Shown piece after piece: positions 33,463 through 62,798 of a stretch of 64,000 nt of DNA. The stretch lies in NCBI GenBank assembly GCA_945874665.1, contig CAMCHJ010000001.1, positions 124,001-188,000 on the forward strand. The letters are read 5' to 3'. The translations under genes and the position numbers were made by a program. The notes beneath the pieces are model-generated. The model did no database searches. It saw only the letters and a program-made list of their open reading frames with translations, and was not told where the DNA came from. Origin of the DNA: Chitinophaga pinensis (GTDB lineage: Bacteria; Bacteroidota; Bacteroidia; UBA7662). How positions within the stretch are numbered: the first letter of the stretch is position 1; every line of letters starts with the position of its first letter.

Positions 33463-33574
33463 ATCGGGTCAGGCTTCGGATTGATAAAAACGAAAAGCAC
33501 GAGCAGTCTCCGGCCGAGGCCGAACCACTTATACATTCCGATCTGCTGACTTTTATTCCCGAAAGCCTGTGATC

Positions 33575-33730
33575 TGCGGCTCATTGGCAGGTCTTCTGAC
33601 TTACTCCCCCTCAGATGCCTTCCCGGTTGCCCAGTGGCGTGTGATCTGAAGGTTGAATGGAGCTCACAGCAGCGGGTACTGTCCCGGAATCACACCTAAA
33701 TGCTACACCGGCTTCCCTTTTAATCCCGCT
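33575..33730 (-). promoter_or_regulatory. Cobalamin riboswitch
   Basis: Read on the minus strand, the conserved blocks occur in order: AAAGGGAAGCCGGTG (end of 33706-33720), GATTCCGGGACAGTACCCGC and CTGCTGTGA (33664-33691), GCCACTG..GGGAAGGC (33617-33638), and the B12 box GTCAGAAGACCTGCC (33586-33600). A further 5' hairpin, CCCGCT/AGCGGG, is at 33725-33744. The remaining leader to the BtuB-like start is about 110 bases. The expression platform is not obvious; no clean terminator stem with a T-run follows, so control at translation is possible. Confidence 0.95.
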
Positions 33731-33760
33731 TCGTAAAAAGCGGGAACCATTAAACCGTTG

Positions 33761-33768
33761 CAAACATA
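33761..33768 (-). promoter_or_regulatory. -7 box (TAnnTTTG) of the riboswitch transcript
   Basis: The minus strand reads TATGTTTG about 40 bases before the first conserved riboswitch block, giving a leader of roughly 290 bases. No clear -33 TTG is present. Confidence 0.5.
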
Positions 33769-48636: not shown

Positions 48637-49533
48637 TTAAACGAATGGGGTTTTACGGAAAATATATATTTGGCTGCTTCCTGTATCCGATGTAAACAAC
48701 GACTTTATCCAAAACCAAAGGCCCTTTGAAAAGCCCAAAAACAGGCCGCCATCCCCTTGGTTTTTGTACTTTTCGCTCAACAAACTGATATAAAAGGGAT
48801 CAAAATGCATGTTTTTCGTGGCTAAAACCTCAAACCCCTCTGCAACCACTCGCTTGCGCAGCATGGCCGGAGGAAAGTGGTACAAGTGCCGTGGTACGTC
48901 CCGTGCCGCCCAAAGCGACCCATAATGCTGAGCATCCTGACTGTTGGGATTTGGAACCGCAATCACCAAAATGCCCCCGGGCTTTACCAAACGGCCGAGC
49001 TCGGTAAATCGCTGCTGCAAGGTATGAACATGCTCTAAAACATGCCACATGGTAACCACGTGATACGTTTCTGTACATTTTTCAAGCCAGGCCTCGCTGT
49101 GAACCTTTAAATCGTATTGTATAGCTGCCCGGTTGGCTGCTTCCTGGTCCGGTTCAACGGCAGTAACTTCCCACCCTGCTTTTTTCATATTGCCTGCAAA
49201 AGCTCCAGTACCGCAGCCAATATCAAGCAACGCGCCCACGGCTGTTATGCCTTCAATTAAAGCACGCTTTTGCTTCAAAGTCACCTTGCGCACTTCGCGG
49301 TAAATGGCATTTACTACGCCCGGTGCTTCTTCATCAGTATGCGAAACATAGTCCTTACTCTCGTAATAATACCCTATCTCTGAGGCAGTTGGCCTTGGAT
49401 TAGTGAACTGTAAGCCACAATCAATGCAGCTGTCAATGTTAAAGAGCTCCTTGCTCACCGTGTAATCTTTGCAGGTTAGAAAGGCCTGCAATTGCCCGCT
49501 GCCGCATGCCGGACAGGCTATTAACTTTTCCAT
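48637..49533 (-). CDS. Class I SAM-dependent methyltransferase with N-terminal zinc ribbon
   Basis: 298 residues. An N-terminal four-cysteine ribbon (CPACGS..CIDCGLQF) is followed by the methyltransferase domain with LLDIGCGTGAFAG, VTAVEPD, MWHVLEHV and LVIAVPNPNS. Members of this group act on sugars or small molecules in surface glycan synthesis; the substrate is unknown here. The start overlaps the end of mnmG by 13 bases. Confidence 0.87.
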   Translation of the reverse strand: MEKLIACPACGSGQLQAFLTCKDYTVSKELFNIDSCIDCGLQFTNPRPTASEIGYYYESKDYVSHTDEEAPGVVNAIYREVRKVTLKQKRALIEGITAVGALLDIGCGTGAFAGNMKKAGWEVTAVEPDQEAANRAAIQYDLKVHSEAWLEKCTETYHVVTMWHVLEHVHTLQQRFTELGRLVKPGGILVIAVPNPNSQDAQHYGSLWAARDVPRHLYHFPPAMLRKRVVAEGFEVLATKNMHFDPFYISLLSEKYKNQGDGGLFLGFSKGLWFWIKSLFTSDTGSSQIYIFRKTPFV

Positions 49534-51401
49534 GCTTGTCCTTTATTCAAATAAACCATCAAAATCCCAATATCAGAAGGCGAAACCCCGCTTACTCTGG
49601 AGGCCTGACCGAGGGTAGCCGGTCGCAATTGGGTCAGCTTTTCCCGGGCCTCTTTGGAGAGCGATGTAATGCCTTTGTAGTCAAAATCGTCTTTCATGCG
49701 CACATCGTCTAAATCTCCCATTTTATCCGCTAATTCCTTCTCTTTCAATATGTAAGACTCATATTTCAGGTTGATCTCTGCTTGTTCTTTTGTTTCGTCA
49801 TTGAAGGGCGTCAGAAACGTTTGTAACTCGGTTGAGCCCGACGCCAAATCGTTCAAATGTACCTGTGGACGCAACAAGAGGCCATCGAGTTTCACTTTTT
49901 GATTGATTGGTGCCGAATCAATACCCAAGAGCACCGGATTCATTTCCTCAGGTGCTACCGATTGCTTTTTCAGGAAGCTCAAAATACGTTCCGCATCCTC
50001 TATCTTCTTTTCGACCTTGTTAAAGCGCGTTTCGCTGATGAGTCCTAGGCGGCGTGCAATTCCCGACAAACGAATGTCGGCGTTGTCTTGTCGCAGTAAA
50101 ATACGATACTCGGCACGCGATGTAAACATGCGATAGGGTTCATCTGTGCCTTTGTTCACCAAATCATCGATCAACACGCCAATATAGGCCTCAGAGCGCT
50201 TCAATATGAGCGGCTCTAACTCATTAATTTTTAAGTGTGCATTGATTCCAGCCATCAAACCCTGACAGGCAGCCTCTTCGTAACCCGTGGTGCCGTTAAT
50301 CTGCCCAGCAAAGTACAATTGCTGAATGTGCTTGGTTTCGAGCGTTGGGTACAGTTGGGTCGGTGGAAAATAGTCGTATTCAATAGCATAACCCGGCCGA
50401 AACATTTTGGCGTTTTCAAATCCTGGTATTTGCTGCATGGCAGCATGTTGCACCTCCTCGGGTAAAGAAGTACTAAAACCATTCACATACACTTCCACGG
50501 TATTCCAACCTTCTGGCTCTACAAAAATCTGATGGCGGTCGCGCTCAGCAAAACGATTTATTTTATCTTCAATGCTTGGACAATAACGAGGACCCAAACC
50601 CTGAATGCGGCCCGTGTACATGGGCGATTTGTCGAATCCTGTTTTAAGAATATCGTGCACTGTTGCATTGGTATAGGTAATCCAACAAGAACGCTGCTTC
50701 TCTAAAGGCTTGGTGTCGGTATAAGAAAACTTGCCCGGCAGCACGTCGCCAAGCTGCTCCTCCATTTTTTTGTAATCAAGACTCCTGCCGTCGATGCGTG
50801 GCGGTGTTCCTGTTTTCATGCGACCAGCTTCAAACCCTAAACTTACCAGCTGCTCGGTTATGCCATGCGCCGCTTTCTCCCCTGTTCGGCCGCCACCAAA
50901 CCGCTTTTCTCCAATATGTATGAGTCCGTTCAAAAAAGTGCCATTTGTAAGCACCACAGCTTTGGCCCTAAACTCAATGCCGAGCGAAGTAACAACCCCA
51001 GCCACCCGATCGCCGTCTGTGATGATGGAGGTGACCATATCTTGCCAAAAATCCACATTTGGGGTATCCTCTAGCATCTGCCGCCACTCGGTTGCAAACA
51101 CCATGCGGTCGTTTTGCGTACGAGGACTCCACATCGCTGGTCCTTTTGATAAGTTAAGCATCCTAAACTGAATGGCCGACCTGTCGCTGACAATGCCTGA
51201 ATAGCCGCCTAAAGCATCTATTTCACGCACAATTTGTCCTTTAGCTACGCCGCCCATAGCTGGGTTGCACGACATCTGTGCGATGGTTTGCATATTCATG
51301 GTAACCAACAGCACCTTAGAGCCCATGTTGGCCGCTGCTGCCGCTGCTTCGCAGCCCGCGTGACCTCCCCCTACAACTATAATATCGTATGCTTGATGCA
51401 T
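49521..51401 (-). CDS. mnmG: tRNA uridine-5-carboxymethylaminomethyl modification enzyme MnmG (GidA)
   Basis: 626 residues, full length. The FAD-binding VVGGGHAGCEAA is at the N-terminus, followed by NPAMGGVAKGQIVREIDALGG, with GTPPRIDGRS and the GQINGTTGYEEAA signature further on. With MnmE it modifies U34 of tRNAs. mnmG is often near the replication origin in bacteria; here it lies about 9 kb from the candidate oriC and directly downstream of two parS-like sites. It overlaps the methyltransferase gene by 13 bases. Confidence 0.97.
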   Translation of the reverse strand: MHQAYDIIVVGGGHAGCEAAAAAANMGSKVLLVTMNMQTIAQMSCNPAMGGVAKGQIVREIDALGGYSGIVSDRSAIQFRMLNLSKGPAMWSPRTQNDRMVFATEWRQMLEDTPNVDFWQDMVTSIITDGDRVAGVVTSLGIEFRAKAVVLTNGTFLNGLIHIGEKRFGGGRTGEKAAHGITEQLVSLGFEAGRMKTGTPPRIDGRSLDYKKMEEQLGDVLPGKFSYTDTKPLEKQRSCWITYTNATVHDILKTGFDKSPMYTGRIQGLGPRYCPSIEDKINRFAERDRHQIFVEPEGWNTVEVYVNGFSTSLPEEVQHAAMQQIPGFENAKMFRPGYAIEYDYFPPTQLYPTLETKHIQQLYFAGQINGTTGYEEAACQGLMAGINAHLKINELEPLILKRSEAYIGVLIDDLVNKGTDEPYRMFTSRAEYRILLRQDNADIRLSGIARRLGLISETRFNKVEKKIEDAERILSFLKKQSVAPEEMNPVLLGIDSAPINQKVKLDGLLLRPQVHLNDLASGSTELQTFLTPFNDETKEQAEINLKYESYILKEKELADKMGDLDDVRMKDDFDYKGITSLSKEAREKLTQLRPATLGQASRVSGVSPSDIGILMVYLNKGQAWKS

Positions 51402-51412
51402 TTTTATTTTGT

Positions 51413-51428
51413 TGTTCCACGTGGAACG
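51413..51428. other. parS-like ParB-binding site 1
   Basis: TGTTCCACGTGGAACG, one base short of a perfect palindrome and close to the parS consensus TGTTNCACGTGNAACA. It lies in the 35-base gap between ybeY and mnmG, 28 bases from the second site. Confidence 0.75.
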
Positions 51429-51436
51429 ATTTAATT

Positions 51437-51883
51437 TTAACCCTTGGTTTTGCCTTGTTCCACGTGGAACATACGCATAGCCAAAGACTCATCCTCTTTT
51501 TTTCGCATGGCTGCTTCTTCGGCCGAAGACTTGTCGCCTTGTCCCATTAAATGCCACAGCCCATGCACCATTACCCGATGTAATTCATCTACAAAACTAC
51601 TGCGAATTTCCTTGGCATTATCACGTACACGATCAATACTTATATAGCACTCTCCATACACCTCGCCATCATTAAGTTCAATGGGGAAAGTAATGATGTC
51701 GGTATAAAAGTCATGCTGTAGGTGTTCGCGATTCAATGCCAATAAAAACTCATCGGAACAAAATATATAACTCAATGACACCAATTCGTGTTTTCCTTGC
51801 TTCGCAACCCTTTGAAGCCAATCCTTTACAGCTCTTCGTTCCTTGAGTGGGTTGCCTACATCGGCAGTATAAAACTTAATCAT
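51437..51883 (-). CDS. ybeY: Endoribonuclease YbeY
   Basis: 148 residues. The metal motif is His107-x3-His111-x5-Asp117 (HGLWHLMGQGD); the third ligand is Asp where E. coli has His. SYIFCSDEFLLALNREHL and DIITFPIE are further family hallmarks. It matures 16S rRNA and monitors ribosome quality. The coding end contains a complete parS-like palindrome that specifies FHVEQ (139-143). It overlaps the anti-sigma-type ATPase gene upstream by four bases. Confidence 0.92.
   Translation of the reverse strand: MIKFYTADVGNPLKERRAVKDWLQRVAKQGKHELVSLSYIFCSDEFLLALNREHLQHDFYTDIITFPIELNDGEVYGECYISIDRVRDNAKEIRSSFVDELHRVMVHGLWHLMGQGDKSSAEEAAMRKKEDESLAMRMFHVEQGKTKG
51456..51471. other. parS-like ParB-binding site 2
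   Basis: TGTTCCACGTGGAACA, a perfect 16-base palindrome matching the ParB consensus, located inside the last codons of ybeY. Its 28-base centre-to-centre distance from site 1 (43 bases between starts) makes a chance pair unlikely. Confidence 0.82.
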
Positions 51884-57424: not shown

Positions 57425-58198
57425 CTACAATAACTTAAAATCATCTCTATCCTGCAAAAATGGCAAGTTCGCGCGTACTTCTTGCAGTTCGGAAGCACTA
57501 ATTGTGATTTGTTTTACAGCTTCGACATCAGCTAGCTGCCAAATAGCTTCACCCATCGGATTAATTACGCAGCTATCCCCTTGATAAGGCAACTGATTAC
57601 CATCGGTACCTACCCTGTTCACCGCTGCCACAAAGCTCTGGTTTTCAATAGCTCTTGCTATAAGTAATTGGCGCCAAGCATACGCTCTCCGAGCAGGCCA
57701 GTTGGCCACGTACACCAATAAATCGTAGTTGTTATTGTTGCGCGACCAAACAGGAAAACGTAAATCGTAGCAAATCTGAAAATTCACCCTCCAATCGTTG
57801 ATCAAACAAATAAGTGGCTCGGTGCCCTTTTCGTAAGCTTTGTGTTCGCCGGCCATGCCAAACAAATGCCGCTTATCGTATTGGGCCAGAATGCCTTCCT
57901 CGTTCACCACCAACAAGCGGTTGTAATGTTTTTTTTCTTCTTCAATGTGCAAAGAACCCGCCACAGAGCAGCTGTATTTTTTAGCTATGGACTGCATCCA
58001 GGCTACTTCGGTACCTTCCATACTACTACCTGTGCCACCAATGTTCATGGTAAAACCCGTGGTAAACATCTCTGGCAATAAAATAAGATCAGTGTGGAGC
58101 TGCTGCTCGGCCAATAAACCCTCTATATGGCGCAAATTCGCCGCTTTATCTTCCCAAAAAAGCTCGCTTTGTACGAGGGTAAGTCTTAAATCGCGCAT
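57425..58198 (-). CDS. Omega-amidase, YafV-like (nitrilase superfamily)
   Basis: 257 residues from the ATG at 58198 (MRDLRLTLVQ). The nitrilase triad is visible: Glu in LLPEMFTTGF, Lys in YDKRHLFG and Cys in QICYDLRFPVW. YafV-type enzymes hydrolyse alpha-ketoglutaramate and alpha-ketosuccinamate to keto acids and ammonia. It overlaps by 13 bases the end of an aminotransferase gene whose products could be its substrates, supporting this assignment. Confidence 0.88.
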   Translation of the reverse strand: MRDLRLTLVQSELFWEDKAANLRHIEGLLAEQQLHTDLILLPEMFTTGFTMNIGGTGSSMEGTEVAWMQSIAKKYSCSVAGSLHIEEEKKHYNRLLVVNEEGILAQYDKRHLFGMAGEHKAYEKGTEPLICLINDWRVNFQICYDLRFPVWSRNNNNYDLLVYVANWPARRAYAWRQLLIARAIENQSFVAAVNRVGTDGNQLPYQGDSCVINPMGEAIWQLADVEAVKQITISASELQEVRANLPFLQDRDDFKLL

Positions 58199-59328
58199 AT
58201 CATCTCTCCTGCTTTTTGTAACAGCTGATCGCTTTTGGCAAAGCAAAAACGCACCAATTTATGCTCAATTTTATTATTGAAGAAGGGCGAAACAGGTATC
58301 AAACTCAACTTGTGTGTAGCCACCAAGGTGCGGGTAAACTCGAGGTCGTCGGCTGCATGGATTTGACTATAATCGGCCAATTGAAAATAGGTAGCAGGCG
58401 TGGGTGTGAATATAAAACGGCTTTTTACTAAGTCTTTCAAGAATAAATCGCGCTTCTGCTGATAAAATTGTGGGAGAATTTCGTACGACCGATCCCTTTC
58501 CATAAACCAGGCATACGCTTGTTGCATGGGGGTATTTACCGAGAACACATTAAATTGATGCACTTTTCTAAATTCGGTATTTAGTACTTCAGGCGCGATG
58601 ATGTAGCCTAATTTCCAACCTGTGGTGTGGTAGGTTTTGCCAAACGACGATACCACGATGCTGCGTTGGCGGATGGCTTGGTAGCGAAGTACCGATAAAA
58701 AAGGCTGGTTGTCGAACACCATGTGCTCATACACCTCGTCGGAGAGCAGTAAAAACGGAAAGCGTTGCATGAGCGCAGTTAGTTTTTGAATATCCGCTTC
58801 AGTTAAGATGGTACCCGCTGGATTGTTAGGATGGTTCAGCAGCAGCAAACGCGTACGTGGATTCATGGCTTTTTCGATGGCTTCCCAGTCGAAGAAGAAG
58901 CTTCCCGCTACAAAGCCCATGGGTACGTGCACCGGTATGCCTCCAGCTAGCACTACAGCAGGGGCGTAGGCATCGTAAGCGGGGTCGAGCAGGATAACCT
59001 CGTCGCCAGCATGAACAAAGGCTTGAAGCGCGGTAAACAAGGCTTGGGTTGCGCCTGCGGTAACCGTAATATTCAGATCGGCATCGGGTAGATAGCCGTA
59101 ACAGCGTTGGGTTTTAAGCGCTATTTGCTCCCGCAGACTAGGTAATCCTGGCATAGGCGCATACTGGTTCTTGCTCTCAGCCATGGCCCTGGTAACAAGC
59201 TGTTGCAGCTGCGGATCTGGGTCAAAATCAGGAAAGCCCTGCGCCAAGTTGATGGCTTGGTGCTGGTTGGCCAATCGCGTCATGACCGAAAAAATACTGT
59301 CGCCCGTATGGGGTAGCTTGGAGATCAT
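58186..59328 (-). CDS. PLP-dependent aminotransferase, methionine/glutamine transaminase type (YbdL-like)
   Basis: 380 residues, fold type I. The PLP lysine is in SSFGKTYHTTGWKLGY; NHPNNPAG and ARTLV-like substrate-binding parts are present. YbdL-type enzymes move amino groups from methionine, glutamine or aromatic amino acids to keto acids. The omega-amidase next door would remove alpha-ketoglutaramate made when glutamine is the donor, pulling the reaction forward; together they fit methionine salvage. It is 15 bases after nadA. Confidence 0.88.
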   Translation of the reverse strand: MISKLPHTGDSIFSVMTRLANQHQAINLAQGFPDFDPDPQLQQLVTRAMAESKNQYAPMPGLPSLREQIALKTQRCYGYLPDADLNITVTAGATQALFTALQAFVHAGDEVILLDPAYDAYAPAVVLAGGIPVHVPMGFVAGSFFFDWEAIEKAMNPRTRLLLLNHPNNPAGTILTEADIQKLTALMQRFPFLLLSDEVYEHMVFDNQPFLSVLRYQAIRQRSIVVSSFGKTYHTTGWKLGYIIAPEVLNTEFRKVHQFNVFSVNTPMQQAYAWFMERDRSYEILPQFYQQKRDLFLKDLVKSRFIFTPTPATYFQLADYSQIHAADDLEFTRTLVATHKLSLIPVSPFFNNKIEHKLVRFCFAKSDQLLQKAGEMICAI

Positions 59329-59343
59329 GTTGCAATTTCGGAA

Positions 59344-60354
59344 TTAGAGTCCAAATTGTGCAGACAAATCGAGCATGCGTTTGATGGGAGCCAAGGCACG
59401 GAGCCTCAAACTTTCTTCCATGTGAATTTCAGGCTGTTCGTATTTGAGTGCGAGGTACACTTTTTCGAGTGTATTGAGTTTCATGTGTGGACAATCGTTG
59501 CAAGCACAATTGTTGGTTGGCGGTGCAGGAATGAAGGTTTTATGCGGTGCCGCCAATTCCATTTGGTGGATAATACCCGTTTCGGTACCCACTATAAATT
59601 TCTGAGCAGTACTTTTTTGTGTGTACTTCAGCAAGGCTGTGGTTGAACCAATAAAATGCGCCAATTCTAGCAGTTCGGCCTCACATTCGGGATGTGCAAT
59701 AAATTCAGCGTCAGGATGCTCCACCATCAGTTGGGTTATTTTTTCAAGAGAAAAAATTTCATGCACCATACAACTGCCATTCCAAAGGAGCATGTTGCGA
59801 TTGGTGATTTTATTAATCCAAGCACCCAGGTTTTTATCTGGTGCAAAAAGAATGGGCTGATCCATCTGCAAACTCTCCACAATTTTTACTGCATTGCTGG
59901 AGGTGCAGATGATGTCGGACAATGCTTTAATGTCGGCCGTGCAATTGATGTACGAAATCACCAAATGATCGGGATTTTCTGCCTTAAAACGGGTAAATAA
60001 CTCCGCAGGTGCACTATCTGCCAAGCTACAACCTGCCTTTAAATCAGGTAAAAGTACTTTTTTGGAGGGATTTAAGATTTTGGCTGTTTCTGCCATAAAA
60101 TGCACCCCTGCAAACAAAATAATATCAGCATCCGTTGCCGCTGCTTGCTGTGCCAAGCCCAAACTATCTCCCAAAAAATCTGCTACATCCTGAATATCAT
60201 TGGTTTGATAATAGTGCGCCAGGAGCACCGCATTTTTTTCTTTTTTCAATTGATTGATCTCCGCCACCAAATCAAGCGTTGGATCCACTTCCACGTCTAA
60301 GAAGCCATTTTGAGGCAGCTGATCGAATGCAAAACTCAACTCTTTTGTGTACAT
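59344..60354 (-). CDS. nadA: Quinolinate synthase
   Basis: 336 residues from the ATG at 60354 (MYTKELSF). Iron-sulfur cysteines are in INCTADIKA and in CACNDC near the end. The substrate-binding [21 protein letters not shown] and HPECEAE motifs complete the NadA pattern. It condenses iminoaspartate and dihydroxyacetone phosphate to quinolinate for NAD synthesis. It is the first gene of the long minus-strand run, and its start borders the AT-rich side of the candidate replication origin. nadD lies on the other side of that region, another NAD gene. Confidence 0.94.
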
Positions 60355-60788
60355 ACCCAAACTATAATAAATTATTTATTTAAATTTTATTGTTGTTGTT
60401 AGGGCTGTGTAAATGTTAGCAAATCAAAAAATTAGCAGTTGCAACAATCAGTACCAACATCCAACAATGCCTTATCAACAGCCGAAGAGATGCAAAGTTC
60501 CTAGTTTTTAATGGATTTTGCAGCTTGTCCACATTTGTGCATAGCAGTTATACAGCGGTGATTTGCGGAGGTGGCTGTGTATAGTGTGTGGACTAATACT
60601 AAATTGTTAAGGTGGCGCTGTATAAATAGAACCGTAAAACTTATGAACAGGGGGTTATGCACCCTATTTGCAGGTTGAGGCAGGGGTTATCGACAGCTTT
60701 CCACATTTATCTACACGGCTTTAGTCAATGTTTTCTTAACACAAGAGAGATTTTTTACCCCTAACTATCTCTTTTAGTATACTCAATA
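60355..60788. other. Candidate chromosomal replication origin (oriC)
   Basis: A 434-base gene-free region. The first part (about 60361-60405) is a run of A/T, a possible unwinding element. DnaA-box-like nonamers (TTATnCACA) follow: TTATCAACA at 60472, TTGTCCACA at 60525, TTATGAACA at 60641, TTATGCACC at 60655, TTATCGACA at 60687, TTATCTACA at 60707, plus weaker TAGTCCACA on the reverse strand at 60587-60595 and CTTTCCACA at 60697. The clustering, the neighbouring parS sites and a sampled GC-skew change support origin function. No dnaA gene is present, as in many Bacteroidota. Confidence 0.7.
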
Positions 60789-61364
60789 CTATCTGTAAAA
60801 GCCTTCTTTGAGGAGATAGTCGTGAATAACGTGAGGAACAAGGTAGCGGATAGATTGGTTGTTTTTAAGGAGGTTCCGGATTTGACTGGAGGAAATTTCG
60901 ACAACCGGAGCCTGTACAAGGTGTACTTGTGGATGGCCGGCGAGTTCAGAGGGGTGTTGCCCTACTCGAGGATATACCAATACTTCGAATTGCTCCAGAA
61001 TTTGCTCGTAATTTTTCCAGCGCGGCAGGCTTACCAAGTTATCTTCACCCATAATTAAGCTAAACTGCCGATCTGGAAACTGTTCGCGCAAGTGAATGAG
61101 CGTATGGATGGTGTAGGAAGGTTTGGCAAGCTTGAACTCCACATCGGTGGCGCGTAGCTTGTGGTTGCCTTCAATAGCCCTGTGCACTAAATCAAGGCGG
61201 AGGTATTGGTCGAGCAGACTGTCTTTCTTCTTCAATGGATTTTGCGGTGTTACCACAAGCCATACCTCTTCGAGTTCGGTTTGGGTGGCAAAATATTCTG
61301 CCAAAATGAGGTGCCCTACATGAATGGGATTAAAGGAGCCGAAGAATAAACCAGTTTTTTTCAT
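60789..61364 (-). CDS. nadD: Nicotinate-nucleotide adenylyltransferase
   Basis: 191 residues. The nucleotidyltransferase motif GSFNPIHVGHL (HxGH) is at the N-terminus and SSSQIRN near the end. It adenylates nicotinate mononucleotide in NAD synthesis. Its start overlaps the gmk stop by four bases, and its 3' end borders the candidate origin. Confidence 0.94.
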   Translation of the reverse strand: MKKTGLFFGSFNPIHVGHLILAEYFATQTELEEVWLVVTPQNPLKKKDSLLDQYLRLDLVHRAIEGNHKLRATDVEFKLAKPSYTIHTLIHLREQFPDRQFSLIMGEDNLVSLPRWKNYEQILEQFEVLVYPRVGQHPSELAGHPQVHLVQAPVVEISSSQIRNLLKNNQSIRYLVPHVIHDYLLKEGFYR

Positions 61365-61930
61365 GGCTTATTTATAAAGTTATTAACCACCTCTAAGGCC
61401 GTGGCTTTAGCCACTTCGAGCTCGTCGTTTACCAAAATATAGTCGAATTCCTGAGCGAATTTCATTTCAATTTCGGCTTTTTCTAGTCTCATTTTGAGTT
61501 TTTCAGGGCTTTCGGTATTGCGTCGCGTGAGCCGCTCTTGCAGCACCTGCAGGGAACCGGCTTGCACAAAAATAGCAAGTGCCTGAGATCCATATTGGCT
61601 TTTGATGTTCAATCCACCCTTTACGTCCACATCAAAAATCACCGATTTACCAGCTGCCAGCAAACGGTCGATTTCGGCGCGTAAAGTGCCATAATAGGTG
61701 CCTGCATAAACCTCTTCCCACTCTACGAAATCGTTATTTTTGATTTTTTCGATGAACACATCCTGCGAAAGAAAATAATAATCCCTGCCATCTACTTCTT
61801 GTCCCCGTTTATCGCGGCTGGTAGCTGAAATTGAAAAGCGCAAATCGGGTCTTTTGTCCAGCAAGTGGTGTACTAAAGTTGTTTTGCCAGAGCCCGAAGG
61901 AGCCGAGAAGATGATGAGTTTGCCAGCCAC
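61361..61930 (-). CDS. gmk: Guanylate kinase
   Basis: About 189 residues if it starts at the GTG at 61930, which gives the usual MAGKLIIFSAPSGSGKTT beginning; a TTG 39 bases further up would overlap yicC. The P-loop GSGKTT, the GMP-binding SATSRDKRGQEVDGRDYYFL and YGTLRAEID are all present. It makes GDP from GMP. The GTG stands one base after the yicC stop codon. Confidence 0.94.
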   Translation of the reverse strand: MAGKLIIFSAPSGSGKTTLVHHLLDKRPDLRFSISATSRDKRGQEVDGRDYYFLSQDVFIEKIKNNDFVEWEEVYAGTYYGTLRAEIDRLLAAGKSVIFDVDVKGGLNIKSQYGSQALAIFVQAGSLQVLQERLTRRNTESPEKLKMRLEKAEIEMKFAQEFDYILVNDELEVAKATALEVVNNFINKP

Positions 61931-61931
61931 T

Positions 61932-62798
61932 TTACAAGATGTTGAGGACTTGTTCTTTGATTTTTTCAAGCTCGTTTTTCATATTCACCACCAGTTTTTG
62001 GATTTCTACGTGGTTGCATTTAGAGCCCAAGGTGTTGATTTCACGGCCCATTTCTTGGGCAATGAATCCGAGTTTTTTGCCGCCCGAATCTTTATTCAAG
62101 TTTTCTCTAAAATAGCGGCAGTGCTGTGCCAAACGCTGTTTTTCTTCACTGACATCCAATTTTTCGAGATAGTACACCAATTCTTGCTCAAAGCGATTGA
62201 GGTCTATCTTTTCTTGTTCTGCAAAAAGCTCTAGTCCTGCCTTGATGCGGTTACGCAAAGTTTCGATGCGATCGCCTTCGTAAGGCACGACGGCGGCAAG
62301 GTCTTTTTCGATGCTCAAGCAGCTGAGCAGCATATCATCGCCTGTTTTTTTTCCTTCTTCTTGGCGGTATGTATCATAAGCGGCCAACCCGTCTTTTACC
62401 AGTTTTTCTAGCTCCGGCCACCAATCTATGGCTTCTTCATTTTCTGTAGCGGCCACATCGGGCAGGCGCATGATGGTATCGAGCAGGTGGCTTTTGTCGA
62501 GTTGTAGCTCTTCGCAAAGTGCAGATAGCTCTTCGTGGTAAGCCTTAAAGAGGCGCTGGTTGAGTAAACTGCTACCGTTATCGACATTGCGCTCAAATTG
62601 TATGCTGACCGTTACCTTACCCCTCTCGAGCGGTGCGGTTACCAGGTTGCGGATGGCGTATTCTTTGTCTTGAAGCACCCGCGGTATCCGCAACCCAAGG
62701 TCGAGGAACTTGCTGTTTAGGGAGCGTATTTCTACTTGTACTAAGCCTACGGGGAGGTGTGCCGATACCTTTCCGTAGCCTGTCATTGATCGAATCAT
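61932..62798 (-). CDS. YicC-family endoribonuclease
   Basis: 288 residues. MTGYGKVSAHL at the N-terminus, EIRSLNSKFLDLGLRIPR and the C-terminal KLGFIAQEMGREINTLGSK plus ELEKIKEQVLNI are the YicC/DUF1732 hallmarks; the C-terminal Glu/His motif is in the active site. E. coli YicC (RnaYicC) degrades sRNA and mRNA. It is upstream of gmk, as in many bacteria. Confidence 0.92.
   Translation of the reverse strand: MIRSMTGYGKVSAHLPVGLVQVEIRSLNSKFLDLGLRIPRVLQDKEYAIRNLVTAPLERGKVTVSIQFERNVDNGSSLLNQRLFKAYHEELSALCEELQLDKSHLLDTIMRLPDVAATENEEAIDWWPELEKLVKDGLAAYDTYRQEEGKKTGDDMLLSCLSIEKDLAAVVPYEGDRIETLRNRIKAGLELFAEQEKIDLNRFEQELVYYLEKLDVSEEKQRLAQHCRYFRENLNKDSGGKKLGFIAQEMGREINTLGSKCNHVEIQKLVVNMKNELEKIKEQVLNIL

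Follow-up and report, generated by a model that had tools for sequence, protein, structure and literature searches.

The gap between nadA and nadD at positions 60355..60788 is very probably the chromosomal origin of replication (oriC), as the preliminary description of this DNA proposed. The case is built from sequence comparison: a dense cluster of DnaA boxes, an AT-rich block, a nearby minimum in GC skew, the proximity of parS sites and a gene order that persists in relatives, together with the skew of a complete Chitinophaga chromosome. Taken together, these point to an origin as the only economical reading. An origin is in itself ordinary, in that every genome has one, and as such it is of a kind already known. 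What is new is the pairing of an unwinding repeat whose trinucleotides have G rather than A in the middle with a DnaA protein that carries Gln rather than Asn at the position that contacts the middle base.

The Gap Between nadA and nadD and Its DnaA Boxes

The window, by which I mean the whole stretch of 64,000 nucleotides that was analyzed (G000:C1:124001-188000), comes from a draft genome of 2.29 Mb, 96% complete and in 35 contigs. The contig to which it belongs (C1; 532,633 b) was read in stretches, and the remaining contigs were covered by a pattern search. On one side of the gap lies nadA, encoding quinolinate synthase (59344..60354, minus strand; NF006878, E 9.6e-137). Its open reading frame extends to 60360, with a likely ATG start at 60354, and by NadA, at 93% identity, the nearest named relative is a metagenome-assembled genome (MAG) titled Sphingobacteriaceae bacterium (L115). 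On the other side is nadD, encoding nicotinate-nucleotide adenylyltransferase (60789..61364, minus strand; TIGR00482, E 2.6e-50), followed by a conserved neighbor, the guanylate kinase gene gmk (61361..61969, minus strand; TIGR03263). A methionine aminotransferase gene (58186..59328, minus strand) lies beyond nadA and adjoins the origin directly in relatives that lack nadA. The stretch between nadA and nadD, both of which are on the minus strand, is indeed free of genes, over 428 bp. No regulatory RNA was found there by matches to Rfam; the only Rfam matches in the window are one tRNA and a cobalamin riboswitch (33569-33766, minus strand; RF00174, 105 bits), both outside the gap.

Eight nonamers, each with at most one mismatch to the consensus TTATNCACA and none of them a perfect match, fall within 244 bp of the gap (60472-60715), where at least six within 250 bases had been described. 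Listed in order, the boxes found by the nonamer scan are TTATCAACA (60472..60480, plus strand), which is also present in three related genomes (G006, G005 and G016), TTGTCCACA (60525..60533, plus), CTATGCACA (60536..60544, minus), CTATACACA (60576..60584, minus), TTATGAACA (60641..60649, plus), TTATGCACC (60655..60663, plus), TTATCGACA (60687..60695, plus) and TTATCTACA (60707..60715, plus). Successive boxes start 11 to 65 bases apart, not 14 to over 100 as first given.

The density of these boxes may be judged against several standards. The window as a whole has a mean of 0.26 box-like nonamers per 250 b. Dinucleotide shuffles of the intergenic sequence yielded 0.86 +/- 0.91 boxes, with a maximum of 6, and in none of 3000 shuffles were 8 reached. 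The gap holds the densest cluster of the 533-kb contig, which elsewhere contains no more than 4 boxes per 250 b, and 200 permuted versions of the consensus word gave no count above 6 at any place along the contig, nor above 4 in the 250-b stretch occupied by the cluster.

The Candidate Unwinding Element and Its Variant Repeat

Between the cluster and nadA, and overlapped by the upstream region of that gene, is a candidate duplex unwinding element (60361..60405). This is the AT-rich block of the preliminary description; it is 82% AT, and only 0.4% of the 45-b windows of the contig are equally AT-rich. That earlier account recognized the origin but missed the variant motif within the block. Read along the minus strand, the order is ATTTACACA-GCC-CTA-ACA-ACA-ACA-ATA, then AT-rich DNA. 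The first element is a DnaA box proximal to the repeat (60406..60414), with two mismatches to the consensus, at a position also occupied in relatives. It is followed by a GC spacer (60403..60405) and then by the trinucleotide array (60388..60402), whose T-rich plus strand, 5'-TATTGTTGTTGTTAG-3', has A, G, G, G and A as its middle bases. The strand predicted to be captured therefore reads TTGTTGTTG, with a middle G instead of the middle A of the conserved DnaA-trio. Conservation across the intergenic alignment is best in the block that comprises the AT-rich DNA, the repeat and the proximal box.

With its DnaA box, short spacer and array of trinucleotides beside an AT block, the element resembles in layout a basal unwinding system (BUS), and the likeness to that of Bacillus subtilis takes in the order of the elements, their strand and polarity, the three-base register, the GC spacer, the AT-rich DNA beyond and even the first trio, 3'-GAT-5', which is retained. 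The window departs from B. subtilis in its three middle trios, which are 3'-TGT-5', and in the weakness of its proximal box; a second box in tandem has three mismatches, while in G001-G004, a related genus, the tandem is clear. The published search rule calls for at least three consecutive 3'-NAN-5' trios no more than 16 b from a box (PMC8287927). No register in the window passes it, so the element is better called BUS-like than a BUS as defined. The other registers of the ACA repeat were also considered, and none restores a middle A within 16 b. Departures from the middle adenine have been predicted for DnaA-trios (PMC8287927), and in B. subtilis an origin whose middle A is replaced by G is impaired, whereas replacement by C is tolerated (PMC10721633). 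In the published work searched, I found no natural family of trios lacking the middle adenine.

From this arrangement I infer origin activity, binding of DnaA, capture of the TTGT strand and a role for Gln. DnaA would bind the box cluster (60472-60715) and the proximal box (60406-60414), and from the latter a filament would extend past GCC and into the AT-rich DNA, where it would hold the T-rich plus strand, 5'-TTATTGTTGTTGTTAG-3', in single-stranded form. The helicase would load on the opened block. The variant repeat would be read by a DnaA in which Gln replaces the Asn that contacts the middle base.

There is a real chance, if one short of an even one, that the block opens in a different manner, by recruitment of a single-stranded unwinding element (ssDUE) as in Escherichia coli. 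The gap would still be oriC, though no longer a BUS. From the distal cluster, DnaA would loop back through bending by HU/IHF and hold the TTGT/TTATT strand, and the 60406 box and the continuous growth of a filament would play a minor part. The T-rich strand of E. coli needs TTGT and TTATT (PMC5742627), and both are present on the T-rich plus strand of the window (60388-60402 and its flank), with the same polarity and, as in E. coli, ending in TTAGG before the box. The window genome, like E. coli, has a Gln-type DnaA, and a strong distal cluster goes along with a weak proximal box and the lack of a good tandem box. What speaks for filament growth from the proximal box is that the three-base register and the spacing of box, GC spacer and repeat match those of relatives with textbook trios, and that in G001-G004 the proximal box still has a perfect TTATCCACA as its tandem partner. 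Unlike in the E. coli element, the tandem TTG repeat of the window directly adjoins the box. The two modes may also act jointly, as reported for Thermotoga (PMC10316083).

The DnaA Contact Residue and the Type of Trio

In the cryo-EM structure from B. subtilis, Asn187 of DnaA contacts the middle base of the trio (PMC10721633). The equivalent residue is Gln in the window genome and its family (f1), according to both a phmmer alignment to 8btg and a MAFFT alignment, whereas DnaA is of the Asn type in Chitinophagaceae and in three genomes from the same order as the window (G018, G019 and G020). Chitinophagaceae carry at the matching place box-GCC/CCC-CTA-ATA-GTA-GTA, the textbook DnaA-trio layout (captured strand 3'-NAN-5'), and so differ from the window in having standard trios, of the CTAATAGTAGTA type, along with Asn. 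ACA repeats stand in place of trios in the window genome, its genus, the related genus g2 (G001-G004) and one MAG (L063). Within the window's own order, G018 and G019 combine standard trios with Asn, and so does G020, where the trios (CC-TTG-ATG-ATG-GTT) appear standard by eye.

Both the residue and the trios could be compared in 52 genomes. All 26 of the Asn type pass the published trio rule, and 21 of the 26 of the Gln type fail it, with the boxes of L064, L078, L093 and L063 assigned by hand from sequence for this scoring and with a doubtful assignment in L054, L085, L086, L088 and L102. Among the five Gln genomes that pass, standard trios are clear in L076 and L081, and the other three are less clear-cut. 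Gln thus seems to permit the variant, not to force it. A similar pattern is seen further afield: the E. coli protein has Gln at the equivalent position (Q208), and DnaA of Thermotoga maritima, by alignment, has Asn. The T. maritima origin contains TAG repeats (PMC10316083).

The DnaA of the window genome (L001/L028) departs from that of B. subtilis at other positions as well. Besides the Gln, it has Val at the positions of both Arg202 and Glu228, which in B. subtilis hold the first trio base. Just past the Walker B aspartates, VHN replaces the IQF of B. subtilis (216-218), a variant common to Sphingobacteriales and not found in Chitinophagaceae.

That the variant repeat is read by a Gln-type DnaA is on present sequence comparisons a strong hypothesis, not proof, and I hold it tentatively. 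The same caution applies to the more general proposal that one residue of DnaA may set the captured motif, with Asn directing it to trios with a middle A and Gln permitting or preferring TTGT repeats with a middle G. It is also quite conceivable that (ACA)3 is no more than chance low complexity in an AT-rich spacer and that the correlation of Asn and Gln with trio type reflects shared ancestry with no functional link. A DnaA tree from which the contact region was left out implies about two changes of the residue and about three of the trio class, so few that most of the 52 genomes do not count as independent; an independent-pairs test of residue against trio, which had one or two independent pairs to draw on, was not significant. 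The contig contains 6 occurrences of TTGTTGTTGTT or its complement, and the standard trios of L076 and L081 fit the same explanation. Chance and ancestry account less readily for a repeat whose register and spacing are kept between genera despite divergence of the surrounding sequence, for the pairing of Asn with standard trios in G018, G019 and G020, or for the parallel relation of residue to motif when E. coli is set against B. subtilis and T. maritima.

Position of the Probable Origin in the Genome and in Relatives

On the 532,633-b contig, cumulative GC skew reaches its minimum at window position 58266, 2.2 kb from the box cluster. The curve to its right is nearly flat for about 65 kb, and the minimum therefore supports the neighborhood and does not fix the exact spot. 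The change in skew noted in the preliminary description is real at the scale of the contig, and its suggestion that the minimum be located could be followed within the draft assembly, with this result. The parS sites that it placed 9 kb away were likewise recovered by a motif search, one a perfect palindrome, TGTTCCACGTGGAACA (51456..51471), and the other with one mismatch (51413..51428). These are the only sites genome-wide within one mismatch of parS, and a pair about 9 kb from nadA recurs in G006, G005 and G016. The two sites (51413-51471) lie just upstream of mnmG (gidA; 49521..51401, minus strand; TIGR00136), one in a gap and one at the edge of ybeY. A frequent neighbor of bacterial origins, mnmG adjoins oriC in E. 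coli, where the origin lies between mnmG and mioC and not, as here, beside nadA. A rival origin at mnmG and parS was considered and set aside, there being just two isolated box-like words in 3.5 kb.

A survey of NadA covered 80 loci from other genomes, with 4-21 kb read per locus. In most Chitinophagales and several Sphingobacteriales, boxes were densest in the gap upstream of nadA; in the loci from Saprospiraceae and cyanobacteria the densest cluster was not at that gap. The window thus resembles the origins of Chitinophagaceae and Sphingobacteriales in its place upstream of nadA, its box cluster, its layout of box, spacer, repeat and AT-rich DNA and, where parS has been seen, a distance to it of no more than about 10 kb. 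Genomes of the window's order have the cluster downstream of nadD even where nadA has been lost, in which case it is retained with nadD on one side and, on the other, the aminotransferase gene that comes after nadA in the window. The comparison with related genomes called for earlier therefore finds the cluster at the matching place both with and without nadA. The cluster of G020 is flanked by nadA and by yidD-rnpA-rpmH, the latter a classic origin neighborhood. I found no report of an origin at nadA in Bacteroidota in the literature searched, a search that did not extend to DoriC.

No nadA was found in 13 drafts (G001-G004 and G007-G015; 1.2-2.2 Mb) representing two genera of the family, which suggests loss of de novo NAD synthesis. 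The origin remained in place in these genera where this could be checked.

The complete chromosome of Chitinophaga sp. E66 was sampled for skew in twenty pieces of 20 kb. Skew is positive in the samples between 0 and 2.85 Mb, negative in those between 3.15 and 6.0 Mb, and of opposite sign in the sequence on either side of nadA at 5.62 Mb (-0.013, +0.078). The samples just to the right of nadA are weakly negative, so the region of the origin is placed but not its exact spot. In the same genome dnaA appears split into two frames (CP079103.1, G021:C1:108266-109650), perhaps through a sequencing error.

These results bear on two further explanations, both highly improbable. The cluster might be a site that titrates DnaA or regulates nadA, akin to datA or DARS, with the origin elsewhere. 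It does sit in the upstream region of nadA, and DnaA boxes can act in gene regulation; the cluster nonetheless survives in genomes without nadA, the skew minimum, parS and synteny with yidD-rnpA-rpmH all indicate the gap, and the layout of box, spacer, repeat and AT-rich DNA is typical of unwinding sites. Least probable of all is a true origin near dnaA, near parAB or at another contig end of an assembly in 35 contigs, 96% complete and covered in part by pattern search alone, given that every parS site is near the gap, that the dnaA contig (C28) and the 20 kb read at the start of the parB contig (C17), where a better cluster would by the preliminary description have counted against the reading, hold none, with at most 2 boxes per 250 b, and that the sole other close-box pair of the searched kind genome-wide, on C16, has no cluster around it.

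With the gap taken as oriC, the order nadD-oriC-nadA becomes a landmark that can be used across several orders of Bacteroidota. The variant trio offers something more, a conserved family with a matching change in the contact residue and with close relatives of both types, and this makes single-strand recognition by DnaA directly testable. The question comes down to one residue and one repeat to swap, TTGTTGTTG against TAGTAGTAG. If the reading is true, the B. subtilis and E. coli types of unwinding element would represent a single architecture read in two ways, and the lack of detected trios in roughly 15% of origins would in part be explained by Gln-type DnaA.
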